Below, in pieces: positions 20,345 to 26,195 of a stretch of DNA of 39,982 nucleotides. The notes below the pieces were generated by a model. It saw nothing but the letters and a program-made list of their open reading frames with translations, made no database searches and had not been told where the DNA came from. The stretch comes from Actinomycetota bacterium. GTDB lineage: Bacteria > Actinomycetota > Acidimicrobiia > Acidimicrobiales > AC-9. A program made the position numbers and the translations under genes. Positions within the stretch are counted from its first letter, which is position 1; each line of letters opens with the position of its first letter. The DNA lies in assembly GCA_005888295.1 (NCBI GenBank), contig VAWP01000045.1, positions 3,342 to 43,323 on the forward strand, read 5' to 3'.

Positions 20345-20381
20345 GAAGCTGGCGGCGGGCCTGCGTCAAGCCGCTTCGCAG

Positions 20382-20454
20382 TGGTCGGGCGCGGCATCGA
20401 TCCGCGGACCTCACGCTTTTCAGGCGCGCGCTCTACCAACTGAGCTACCCGACC
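20382..20454 (-). tRNA. tRNA-Phe (GAA)
   Basis: Minus strand GGTCGGG-TA-GCTC-AGTTGGTA-GAGC-G-CGCGC-CTGAAAA-GCGTG-AGGTC-CGCGG-ATCGATG-CCGCG-CCCGACC-A folds as a cloverleaf; CCA not encoded. Confidence 0.93.
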
Positions 20455-20489
20455 GTGGCCAGTGACCCTACCGCGATAGGAGGGTTTGG

Positions 20490-20564
20490 CGGACCTGACG
20501 GGATTTGAACCCGCGACCTCCGGCTTGACAGGCCGGCGTGCACTCCAAACTGCACCACAGGTCC
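20490..20564 (-). tRNA. tRNA-Asp (GTC)
   Basis: Minus strand GGACCTG...CTGTCAA anticodon loop...GCGGGTTCAAATCCCGT-CAGGTCC-G; CCA is encoded immediately after. Confidence 0.94.
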
Positions 20565-20598
20565 CTGGCTGGCGGGACGGCGTCCCGACGAATCCGCG

Positions 20599-20671
20599 CA
20601 CCCCCAACGGGATTCGAACCCGTGCTACCGCCTTGAAAGGGCGGCGTCCTGGGCCGCTAGACGATGGGGGC
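20599..20671 (-). tRNA. tRNA-Glu (TTC)
   Basis: Minus strand GCCCCCATCGTCTAGCGGCCCAGGACGCCGCCCTTTCAAGGCGGTAGCACGGGTTCGAATCCCGTTGGGGGTG; anticodon loop CTTTCAA. Confidence 0.95.
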
Positions 20672-20697: not shown

Positions 20698-22032
20698 CTA
20701 GCAGGGTCGCCCCTCGGCCTCGCCGGTCACGATCCATTCGGTGCCGTCGGGGCTGTCCCGCACCTCGACCCCGAGCTGGGCGAGCCGGTCCCGCGCCACG
20801 TCGGCGTCGTGCCAGCGCCGGTCGGCGCGGGCGTCTGCCCGCATGCCGAGGACAGCCTCCACGAAAGGCCCGATCACCTCGCGCGGGTCGCGCGCTCCCA
20901 CTTGGGCCAGCTCGCCCAGCCGCACGACCATCGACCGCAGAGCCGCCCGCCCGCGATCCATCTCGTCGGACTGGAGCGTGTCACGGGACCAGGCCTGCAG
21001 CTCGCCGTCGAGGTCCAGGATCGTCCTGACCGCCGACTCGACGTCGCGCGCGGCCACGGCGGCGGCGAACGCCTCCTCGTGGGCGCGCACCGACTCCATG
21101 AGCGGCGACCCCGACGGCTGCGGCTCGGCGTCCCCGACCGGCGACGGCTGGCTCGCGTCGGAACGGTCTCCTTCAGGGGCCTGGCGATCGGCGCGAGGCG
21201 CCCGACCGGCGGCCACATCGGCGATCTCGGAGATGGTCACGGTGCTCCCAGCGGGGATCTCAGTCGAGCGACCATCGGAGCGGACCGTGACCACGCCCAG
21301 CCCGGCGATCGTGGCGTCCCCCGCGTCGAGATCGATCACCACGGCCGTGTGCTCGTCCACCCCGAGCACGAACGCATCCTCCGGTAGCTCGCGCTCCATG
21401 ACCGCCAGCCGCTGCTCGCCGAGGTAGCAGTAGCGGGTGTCGTGGTTCCCGCCTTCGGCGTTGTTGTAGTGCGGGATGACCGCGGCGTGCAGGCCGGTGG
21501 CGGCCAGCAGGTCGAGGCCCTCGAGCCAGTGCGGGTCGGCGCCGACCTTGTAGATCTCGTAGACGGGGACGGTCGCCACCCCGAGCGTCAGGGCGGCGGC
21601 GCTGGCGAAGGTCACCACCCCACCCCGGGCCAGCTTGTCGGCCAGCAGTTGCGGGACGACCGTTCCGGTCCAGTGGCGCAGGGCGTAGCTCGGGCTGCCA
21701 GGCCCGGCAAAGACGTACCGAGCCTCGCCGAGCCTCGCCAGCATCGTCTCGTTGCGGACGGTGTCGGCCTCCGCGGACGACCGTATGTCGGCCACCTCGA
21801 TCTCGGCGTTCACGCTCTCCCGGAAGTACTCGACCGCCTTCGCCGCCACGTCCGCCGCGTTCATCTGGAACCCGAACGGCGTGCTCAGCAGCACCGCCGG
21901 GACCGGCGGCGGGCCCAGGCGGGCCAGGAGCTGGCGGTGCATCTTCACCATGGTGGGGCTGGTCTCCCCCGAGCCCATGATGGTGAGCAGGCGGGTCACA
22001 CCCGTGGCCAACGTCCCGGTCGGAAGGGCCAT
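20698..22032 (-). CDS. Peptidase S51 (cyanophycinase/dipeptidase E)-like domain fused to a cysteinyl-tRNA synthetase C-terminal (DALR-like) domain
   Basis: N-terminal TRLLTIMGSGETSPTMVKMHRQLLARLG...VFAGPGSPSYALRHW...GGVVTFASAAALTLG...VLGVDEHTAVVIDL; C-terminal HEEAFAAAVAARDVESAVRTILDLDGELQ...FVEAVLGMRADARADRRWHDADVARDRLAQLGVEVRDSPDGTEW. ATG at 22032 chosen. Confidence 0.8.
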   Translation of the reverse strand: MALPTGTLATGVTRLLTIMGSGETSPTMVKMHRQLLARLGPPPVPAVLLSTPFGFQMNAADVAAKAVEYFRESVNAEIEVADIRSSAEADTVRNETMLARLGEARYVFAGPGSPSYALRHWTGTVVPQLLADKLARGGVVTFASAAALTLGVATVPVYEIYKVGADPHWLEGLDLLAATGLHAAVIPHYNNAEGGNHDTRYCYLGEQRLAVMERELPEDAFVLGVDEHTAVVIDLDAGDATIAGLGVVTVRSDGRSTEIPAGSTVTISEIADVAAGRAPRADRQAPEGDRSDASQPSPVGDAEPQPSGSPLMESVRAHEEAFAAAVAARDVESAVRTILDLDGELQAWSRDTLQSDEMDRGRAALRSMVVRLGELAQVGARDPREVIGPFVEAVLGMRADARADRRWHDADVARDRLAQLGVEVRDSPDGTEWIVTGEAEGRPC

Positions 22033-22054: not shown

Positions 22055-23698
22055 TCAACCGCCTCGCACGTCGACCGGTGTACCGGCCCGCTCCGACGAC
22101 CGGTGGGCGGCCTCGAGGAGGACCACGATCCTCCGGCCCTCGTCGGGGGTGACGGCCAGCGGCTCGCCGAGGGCGAGGTGATCGGCGAGGTTGCGCTGGA
22201 AGGCAAAGGGCTGCGGCGCCGCGAGCGGGAGGCGGGTCTCGCTCAGGCCGTGGTCGCTCTCGTACCGGGCCAGCGTGAGCTCGGCCGGCGCCTCGGCGTG
22301 ATGCGCCCGTTCGACGACGAGACCCACCCCGGGCTCGAGGCGCTCGAAGGTCCGTGGTCGGTACCAGCCCGCGAGTGTGCCCGCCGCACCCTGCAGATAG
22401 AACTTCGGTCGCCTGATGCCGGCCACGGAGCTGTCGACGAACTCCGCCTCCCTTCCGTCGTCCCACCGGAGGCGGACCCGCAGCTGGTCGAGGTTGGTGA
22501 CGTCGTGCCAGACCCGCTTGTGCCCGTGGGCCTCGACGACGGCTGGCATGTCGCCCATGAGGAGGAGGATCCAGTCGAGGTGGTGCGAGCCCCAGTCGAA
22601 GACGGTTCCCCCCGAGATCGACTCCTCCGAGTGCCACGCCCGACACGGGTGCTCGAAGCCCCCCACGAACGTCTCGACGTTGAACAGCTCGCCCAGCATC
22701 CCGGCGCGAACGGCGCGCTGAATGGCGACGAAGTCGGTGTCCCATCGCCTGCTCTGGTTGACTGTCAGAACACGGTCGTGCGCCTGCGCCGTCGCCAGCA
22801 TCTCGTCGGCCTCGCCCACGGTGAGGCACAAGGGCTTCTCGCAGGCCACGTGCTTTCCGGCGCGCAGCAGCTCGATCGAGATGCTGGCGTGCGACACCGG
22901 TGGGGTGGCGACCACCACCACCTCCACGTCGTCGTCCCTGGCCAGCTCGGCCACTGTCGTGTACGCCCGGATGCCAGGGAACTCCTCCTCGGCGGCCTTG
23001 CGCCGTTCGGCGCTCTCGTCGCAGGCCGCCACCAGGTCGAGACCGGCTGTGGCCCGGGCGGCGGCGCCGTGGTGGTAGCCCATGCCGCCGTAGGGGCCGT
23101 ACCCCACGACGGCCAGACCGACAGGTCGGCCCCCGCGGTCCGGTGCATGGCGGGAGCGCAGGGCCCGACGCAGGATCGTCGCCAGCTCCTCGTTCTCGAG
23201 CGCGCCCTCGGTGTTCCCGAGGCCCGAGGTCACGATCCGGCCTCGTCCTGCGGCCACCTCGGTGATCACCGGCTGATCCTCGTAGCCCACGCTCACCGAC
23301 ACACAGACCTGCGCCGCCGGGGCCGACCTCAGCGGCCGGAGGCGGTCCACGATCGGGAACTCGTCGCGCACCCGTTGGGTCAGCACGCTCGTCGGCGACA
23401 CCACCTTGGCGAACCACTCACCGAGGCGCCCGGCGTCCGCACCGAGGCGCCCGTCGCCACCAATGTGCAGCAGCGACGCGCCGGCCTCGACGTGACCGTG
23501 CAGCGCCCGCAGCCAGTCGTCGTTCAGGCCGTCGGTCCCGCCGTCCACCACCACGGCCCCGTACCCCCCAGGTGGCGGGACATCGGGGCCCGCGGGCACG
23601 ACGTCGGTACGGGTGACGCCGACTGCCCTCGCGGCAACGGCCGTCAGAGCCGAGCGGCGCCGGTCGGTCAGGCGCGAGGACACGATCAGGACGGGCAT
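22055..23698 (-). CDS. ThuA-like N-terminal domain fused to Gfo/Idh/MocA oxidoreductase
   Basis: N-terminal PVLIVSSRLTD...GGYGAVVVDGG...LRALHGHVEAGASLLHIGGDGRLG; C-terminal GLAVVGYGPYGGMGYHHGAAARATAGLDLVAACDES...VEVVVVATPPVSHASISIELLRAGKHVACEKPLCLTVGEADEM. Confidence 0.86.
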   Translation of the reverse strand: MPVLIVSSRLTDRRRSALTAVAARAVGVTRTDVVPAGPDVPPPGGYGAVVVDGGTDGLNDDWLRALHGHVEAGASLLHIGGDGRLGADAGRLGEWFAKVVSPTSVLTQRVRDEFPIVDRLRPLRSAPAAQVCVSVSVGYEDQPVITEVAAGRGRIVTSGLGNTEGALENEELATILRRALRSRHAPDRGGRPVGLAVVGYGPYGGMGYHHGAAARATAGLDLVAACDESAERRKAAEEEFPGIRAYTTVAELARDDDVEVVVVATPPVSHASISIELLRAGKHVACEKPLCLTVGEADEMLATAQAHDRVLTVNQSRRWDTDFVAIQRAVRAGMLGELFNVETFVGGFEHPCRAWHSEESISGGTVFDWGSHHLDWILLLMGDMPAVVEAHGHKRVWHDVTNLDQLRVRLRWDDGREAEFVDSSVAGIRRPKFYLQGAAGTLAGWYRPRTFERLEPGVGLVVERAHHAEAPAELTLARYESDHGLSETRLPLAAPQPFAFQRNLADHLALGEPLAVTPDEGRRIVVLLEAAHRSSERAGTPVDVRGG

Positions 23699-23787
23699 CG
23701 GCTCGTTCACGGTGGGCGGTGCCATAGGGGCGACCATCTTCTACCCACCGGCGATCCGTCGTGGACACCGCAGTAGGGTGACGCCCG

Positions 23788-25408: not shown

Positions 25409-25882
25409 TCAGAGCGTGGTCTCGAGGGCCTCGACCACCTGCTCCTCGAGCCAACTGAGGTAGCCGTAGAGGGCGAGCCCGGGGGCCCGCGGATCGCTCG
25501 TGTCGACCGGCTCGAGACCCTCGCTGACGTCGAGATTGGTGCCGAGCACGAGGCGCAGCTCGTTGAGCGCCGAGAGCCAGCTGACGACCTGACCCTCGTC
25601 GAGCCGGTCGGCGTCGATGGTCTCCTCCATCACCGTGAGGGCCTGGCGGTGGTGCTCGAGGAGTTCGGCGTGCACGAGCTCCTGGTAGTCCGCCTCGGCC
25701 TTTTCCTCGTCGCGGTAGGCCGGGGGGAACAGGCGACGCACGCTCGGATCGGCGGGATCGGTCGAGTCGATCAGCTCCCGCACCTGGCCGGGTAGCGAGC
25801 GGAGCAGGTCCCGTTCCGCCTTCGACAGTCGCAGTTGGTACTGACCCGCCCTGGTGCGGCGCAGGCGGCGGCCGAGCTTCAC
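25409..25882 (-). CDS. DUF2017 family protein
   Basis: Acidic helical protein MKLGRRLRRTRAGQYQLRLSKAERDLLRSLPGQVRELI...SWLSALNELRLVLGTNLDV, directly downstream of clpS as is usual in actinobacteria. Confidence 0.8.
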   Translation of the reverse strand: MKLGRRLRRTRAGQYQLRLSKAERDLLRSLPGQVRELIDSTDPADPSVRRLFPPAYRDEEKAEADYQELVHAELLEHHRQALTVMEETIDADRLDEGQVVSWLSALNELRLVLGTNLDVSEGLEPVDTSDPRAPGLALYGYLSWLEEQVVEALETTL

Positions 25883-25889
25883 CCGGACC

Positions 25890-26195
25890 TCACGCCTCGT
25901 GCTCCATCGTCGCCCACAGGCCGTGCTCGTGCAGCCGGAAGACGTCGAGCTCCGCCCGTTCCCGGGACCCGCTCGAGACGATGGCGCGTCCCTTCTGGTG
26001 CACGTCCAGCATCAGCTTGGTGGCCTTCGCCTTGCTGTAGCCGAACAGCTTCTGGAACACGAAGGTGACGTAGGACATGAGGTTGATCGGGTCGTTCCAG
26101 ACGATGACGATCCACGGCCGATCGGGCTCGACGGCGCGGCCCCCGACGGGCTCCTCGATCTCGGTCGGAAGCGTGTCCGGCACCGCTGTCGGCAT
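25890..26195 (-). CDS. clpS: ATP-dependent Clp protease adaptor ClpS
   Basis: [72 protein letters not shown]. Confidence 0.94.

Follow-up and report, generated by a model that had tools for sequence, protein, structure and literature searches.

A peptidase S51-like hydrolase fused to a cysteinyl-tRNA synthetase tail in environmental actinobacteria

The stretch of 39,982 nucleotides from an Actinomycetota genome that was analysed here (the window) encodes a protein in which a hydrolase domain of the peptidase S51 type is followed by the C-terminal region of cysteinyl-tRNA synthetase (CysRS). The fusion is a real, widely conserved two-part protein of environmental actinobacteria and their neighbours, and its architecture is a variant on known families for which no published description was found in the open-access literature searched. 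As to its function, we tentatively favour a tRNA(Cys)-targeted serine hydrolase, which would act on a group borne by the tRNA.

Conservation of the fusion gene

The fusion is encoded as follows:
20698..22032, minus strand: S51-like hydrolase and CysRS tail fusion gene, 444 aa, kept in more than 110 homologues

The preliminary description placed an open reading frame at 20698-22032 without giving its strand; the gene is real and is read on the minus strand, from 22032 to 20698. The start codon possibly lies a few codons further in (V12, GTG); homologues begin just before the motif MGSGE. Because more than 110 relatives from independent assemblies carry both halves in a single uninterrupted frame, the false fusion by frameshift that was raised at the outset, like any chance in-frame joining of two genes through assembly or annotation, is ruled out.

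Relatives occur in the Acidimicrobiia, in other Actinomycetota and on contigs labelled Dormibacterota. Of 40 related genomes, 17 match the S51 half and have the tail close by; among 397 genomes drawn evenly across the phylum, strong matches to that half were obtained in 29, almost always accompanied by the tail. Scanning of named genome contigs recovered 80 loci at 46-62% identity, mostly from Acidimicrobiia and unclassified Actinomycetota; the fusion contigs labelled Dormibacterota or Chloroflexi form one clade, and a single-contig genome (G033) also carries the fusion.

The S51-like hydrolase half

The N-terminal half contains the following features, with conservation counted over 62 aligned proteins:
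21235..21993, minus strand: S51 (PepE/cyanophycinase-like) domain, residues 14-266 (the fold as a whole spans 14-270), from profile and AlphaFold fold matches
21601..21603, minus strand: codon of Ser144, the predicted nucleophile (FASAAAL replaces GxSAGA), 62/62, aligned with the Ser of CSAGAM in 6nqc
21469..21471, minus strand: codon of His188 (IPHYNN), the predicted catalytic His, 62/62, aligned with the His of VIPHFN in 6nqc
21352..21357, minus strand: Asp226-Glu227 (GVDEH), the predicted triad acid, 62/62, aligned with GIDEVT in 6nqc

An S51-like fold had been proposed for this half on sight, with a retained serine in TFASAAALTLG and a VDEHTAVV motif; both motifs are present (Ser144; residues 225-232), and profile and structure comparisons confirm the proposal. 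The family profile matches 6nqc, a cyanophycinase-like exopeptidase (E 9.4e-10), with S144, H188 and D226-E227 falling on its SAG, PHF and DE motifs, and the AlphaFold model of the whole protein (mean pLDDT 85.8) retrieves in Foldseek 6nqc (E 2e-13), 7ffp, 3en0 and 1fy2, matches that include Xenopus and Salmonella PepE and CphB. Single-sequence scores are lower: Pfam Peptidase_S51 (PF03575) aligns to residues 57-234 below its cut-off (E 0.003, 17.7 bits versus 23.9), and NCBIfam cyanophycinase (TIGR02069) matches weakly at residues 217-264 (E 3e-4).

The protein thus shares with the S51 family (PepE/dipeptidase E, CphB, MccG; 6nqc) the fold and the order and alignment of Ser, His and DE, whereas it differs in its FASAA in place of GxSAG, in the additional invariant stretches YEIYK and NNAEGG.HDT..C, in its C-terminal CysRS tail and in its score below the Pfam S51 cut-off. 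Invariant positions include G20-S-G-E, P111-G-S-P, S144-A-A, Y158-E, Y161-K and H188, and further N191, G194, D198-T, C202, R208 and D226-E-H; the nucleophile motif of the family is [AGS]-S-A-A-A, in which the Ser-Ala of GxSAGA is kept and its flanking Gly residues are lost. Triads described for S51 enzymes consist of Ser-His-Glu or Ser-His-Asp (PMC9239234, PMC11078827). On the strength of these published triads, the fold match and the invariant putative triad aligned with 6nqc, we predict that the S51 half is catalytically active as a serine hydrolase and that its substrate pocket is unusual.

The CysRS-like tail and its G34-contact residues

The C-terminal part comprises two features:
20878..21105, minus strand: CysRS DALR-like four-helix bundle, residues 310-385, from hhalign (against CysRS columns 335-452) and AlphaFold helices
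20734..20862, minus strand: CysS_C anticodon-binding-type domain, residues 391-433, from Pfam, phmmer and conservation

Domain searches establish the relationship to CysRS that the preliminary description had noticed in this region. Pfam CysS_C (PF23493) matches residues 391-433 above its cut-off (E 2.7e-9, 37.4 bits versus 23), NCBIfam CysRS matches residues 331-434 weakly, and phmmer against the PDB finds CysRS chains only, including 1li5, aligned to the last ~50 residues. The homology also covers the helical bundle: in hhalign, the profile built from 46 tails aligns with one built from 27 CysRS proteins of related genomes over 117 columns (E 2.7e-14), with bundle and terminal domain in order, so that residues 310-433 are colinear with the CysRS helical bundle and anticodon-binding domain. 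The AlphaFold helices of the tail span residues 310-327, 331-351, 356-380 and 383-403. Modelled alone, the tail (mean pLDDT 90.3) has as its sole significant PDB match 1u0b (E 7e-4, probability 1.0), the complex of CysRS with tRNA(Cys); the rmsd of this alignment is high, which indicates that the two sub-domains are arranged differently. As had been claimed, the CysRS catalytic core is absent: Pfam tRNA-synt_1e, the class I core with HIGH and KMSKS, is not matched in the fusion protein, although it is matched in the CysRS of the host. Compared with the CysRS C-terminal region (DALR_2 and CysS_C, PF23493; 1u0b), the fusion therefore keeps the colinear bundle and anticodon domain together with the residues that contact G34, but lacks the class I core and has an S51 hydrolase in place of the N-terminal half.

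In Escherichia coli CysRS, Arg427 and Asp436 hydrogen-bond with G34 of the tRNA, Trp432 stacks on it and Arg423 takes part in a water network (PMC12684709). By phmmer alignment the equivalents in the fusion are R402, D411, W407 and R398, respectively. Across 62 aligned relatives R402, D411 and R398 are invariant (62/62 each), as are R414, D426 and W433, and position 407 is aromatic in 61/62, the remaining protein having Met. The corresponding positions in the CysRS proteins of related genomes are conserved in 25/27 (R402), 27/27 (D411), 27/27 (W407, aromatic) and 25/27 (R398), so that the two pocket arginines are slightly less conserved there than in the fusion; the terminal Trp433, invariant in the fusion, is variable in host CysRS. 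Six relatives have an eroded helical bundle of only 32-61 aa, but all six keep CysS_C. Fusion tails and CysRS tails form two groups, with support 99, and on this separation the fusion tails may have a single origin.

A second non-synthetase architecture, found in several actinobacterial families, joins an N-terminal CysS_C to a GT2-like glycosyltransferase in proteins of about 305-330 aa (L186, L187, L188 and L190-L198; the GT2 annotation was checked on L186 and extended to the rest by sequence likeness). These proteins resemble the S51 fusion in placing the same CysS_C module, with the same conserved R/R/aromatic/D/R/D pattern, on an enzyme that is not a synthetase; they differ in the N-terminal position of CysS_C, in having neither helical bundle nor terminal Trp, and in the unrelated enzyme. 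The pattern may indicate tRNA binding in the glycosyltransferases too, or a structural role or one in binding another ligand. Because these proteins keep the same residues, retention of the G34 pocket is weakened as an argument for tRNA binding by the S51 fusion and is no proof of it.

Gene neighbourhood and candidate functions

The neighbours of the fusion gene in the window are:
22055..23737, minus strand: Gfo/Idh/MocA oxidoreductase gene, 22 bp upstream of the fusion, with Gfo/Idh/MocA domains at residues 208-556
20598..20671, minus strand: tRNA-Glu(TTC) gene, 26 bp downstream of the fusion
20487..20564, minus strand: tRNA-Asp(GTC) gene, in the same tRNA cluster as tRNA-Glu
20381..20454, minus strand: tRNA-Phe(GAA) gene, in the same tRNA cluster as tRNA-Glu
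25409-25882 and 25890-26195, minus strand (that of the fusion): DUF2017 gene and ClpS gene, a pair upstream of the fusion

The Gfo/Idh/MocA gene is a putative operon partner of the fusion in the window's genome; in the first ~200 residues of its product no Pfam family passes the cut-off applied, and by eye this part resembles ThuA. In 33 of 118 loci (a set that includes a few near-duplicates) the gene directly 3' of the fusion is a same-strand tRNA-Glu, typically within about 160 bp and often followed by tRNA-Asp and tRNA-Phe; given this limited share, the arrangement is read as lineage synteny, and a functional link to tRNA-Glu was discarded. About 20 other loci likewise have DUF2017 and ClpS genes close to the fusion. 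In another large set of loci there is a tight coupling with an alpha/beta hydrolase gene (for example L055:5165-5992, with equivalents in 55 loci), whose stop codon is 21-45 nt before the GSGE codon of the fusion in 54/55 loci, so that the two genes overlap or abut. Such coupling is typical of partners and points to a lead for function, although in the window no alpha/beta hydrolase gene lies directly upstream of the fusion. None of these neighbours (oxidoreductase, tRNA-Glu, alpha/beta hydrolase, ClpS/DUF2017) is universal across fusion loci.

From the features of the two halves we infer tRNA binding, specificity for tRNA(Cys), catalytic activity and a substrate as follows. The CysRS bundle and anticodon-binding domain would serve the S51-fold hydrolase as a grip on tRNA(Cys), the tail holding the GCA anticodon arm with the G34 pocket that CysRS uses; the S51 domain, occupying the place of the synthetase core, would cleave an ester or amide bond on the cargo of the tRNA, such as an aminoacyl or peptidyl group that is wrong or modified. 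The invariant putative triad on an S51 fold, the CysRS-colinear tail with its G34-contact residues, the persistence of CysS_C where the bundle is eroded, the grouping of the fusion tails and the presence of a full-length CysRS in most of the genomes are consistent with this model. There are also precedents for its elements. Anticodon-binding domains direct the editing sites of aminoacyl-tRNA synthetases, and ThrRS-ed, a freestanding archaeal editing protein, likewise consists of a hydrolytic domain and a synthetase anticodon-binding domain, with no synthetase activity (PMC11295145); the hydrolase fold of the fusion is unrelated to that of ThrRS-ed, the tRNA is different, and any editing by the fusion is putative. 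MccG, which belongs to S51, cleaves a mimic of an aminoacyl-nucleotide (PMC9239234).

Against the tRNA(Cys) model stand the occurrence of the pocket pattern in the CysS_C-glycosyltransferases, the net charge of the tail (-9), which is atypical for an RNA grip, the change of the GxSAG nucleophile motif to FASAA, and the identity of the nearest tRNA genes, which are Glu, Asp and Phe rather than Cys and whose synteny is lineage-limited. Moreover, no need of CysRS for an editing partner is known, and the enzyme is usually regarded as accurate enough without one. The preliminary description had taken the tRNA-binding module as a hint, expressly speculative, that aminoacyl-tRNA or amino-acid conjugates are what the S51-like enzyme acts on. 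The retained G34-contact residues strengthen that suggestion, which is still the best single mechanism, whereas the glycosyltransferases that share these residues detract from it.

Because the glycosyltransferase fusions keep the pocket residues and the tail is so acidic, the tRNA(Cys) model is held tentatively, and a function that does not involve tRNA is almost as likely. CysS_C would then be a mobile module for oligomerisation, protein docking or binding of some other ligand, and the enzyme a cytoplasmic peptidase of aspartyl or isoaspartyl type acting on small peptides, often together with the upstream alpha/beta hydrolase. Known S51 enzymes act on Asp and isoAsp peptides (PMC9239234, PMC11078827), the abutting alpha/beta hydrolase would suit a metabolic pair, and both the use of CysS_C, with the same residues, N-terminal to a GT2-like domain in other actinobacterial families and the charge of the tail fit a module of this kind. 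Against it, the homology to CysRS is not confined to CysS_C but includes the helical bundle, and the residues equivalent to those contacting G34 are no less invariant than in CysRS. Nor is an ordinary Asp-Xaa dipeptidase obvious, because the protein departs from PepE in its nucleophile motif and in several invariants peculiar to the fusion (Y158-E159-x-Y161-K162, N191, D198-T199, C202).

An improbable alternative to both is an MccG-like hydrolase, serving resistance or housekeeping, that would act on aminoacyl-nucleotide inhibitors of CysRS and be localised by its tail to CysRS or tRNA(Cys). MccG enzymes of the S51 family, mostly encoded by standalone genes, do cleave an aminoacyl-nucleotide toxin, MccG itself acting against an isoaspartyl-nucleotide inhibitor of AspRS (PMC9239234). 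However, no biosynthetic cluster was seen beside the fusion gene, its stable, lineage-following presence is more like that of a housekeeping gene than of a resistance gene, and an aminoacyl-adenylate does not bind at the anticodon-binding end of CysRS. PADLOC gave no match, and a defence-system reading was dropped on that account.

Far less probable still is a split CysRS, in which the tail would complement a tail-less CysRS-like enzyme in trans, or would regulate CysRS or MshC. The order also has tail-less CysRS-like proteins of ~380 aa, with MshC as best match, and no full-length CysRS was found in three fusion genomes close to that of the window (G001, G002 and G023), which have only the tail-less MshC-like protein and the fusion. 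These three are draft assemblies, 88-97% complete, and we tentatively attribute the missing CysRS to their draft state; the tail-less proteins fit the mycothiol ligase better. The window's genome, which also encodes an MshC-like protein without a tail, has a full-length CysRS next to a ValRS, the latter recognised by its sequence, on a contig (C160) whose tetranucleotide make-up resembles that of the window, and in most other genomes with the fusion, too, there is a full-length CysRS that bears its own tail. Because the two coexist, the fusion adds to CysRS rather than replacing it, and a replacement or a split enzyme is disfavoured.

That these proteins form a hitherto undescribed class of serine hydrolases directed at tRNA(Cys), with an S51 fold replacing the CysRS catalytic core, is a more specific proposal, and we regard it as doubtful. 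If it were true, no earlier S51 enzyme would be known to act on a tRNA-linked substrate, and the fusion would point to an unrecognised step of Cys-tRNA proofreading or recycling in Actinomycetota and Dormibacterota. Should the fusion bind tRNA(Cys), it would reveal an unsuspected tRNA-linked hydrolytic step and add tRNA to the peptides and aminoacyl-nucleotides on which S51 enzymes act, and the parallel fusion to glycosyltransferases suggests that several enzymes have taken up the anticodon module of CysRS.
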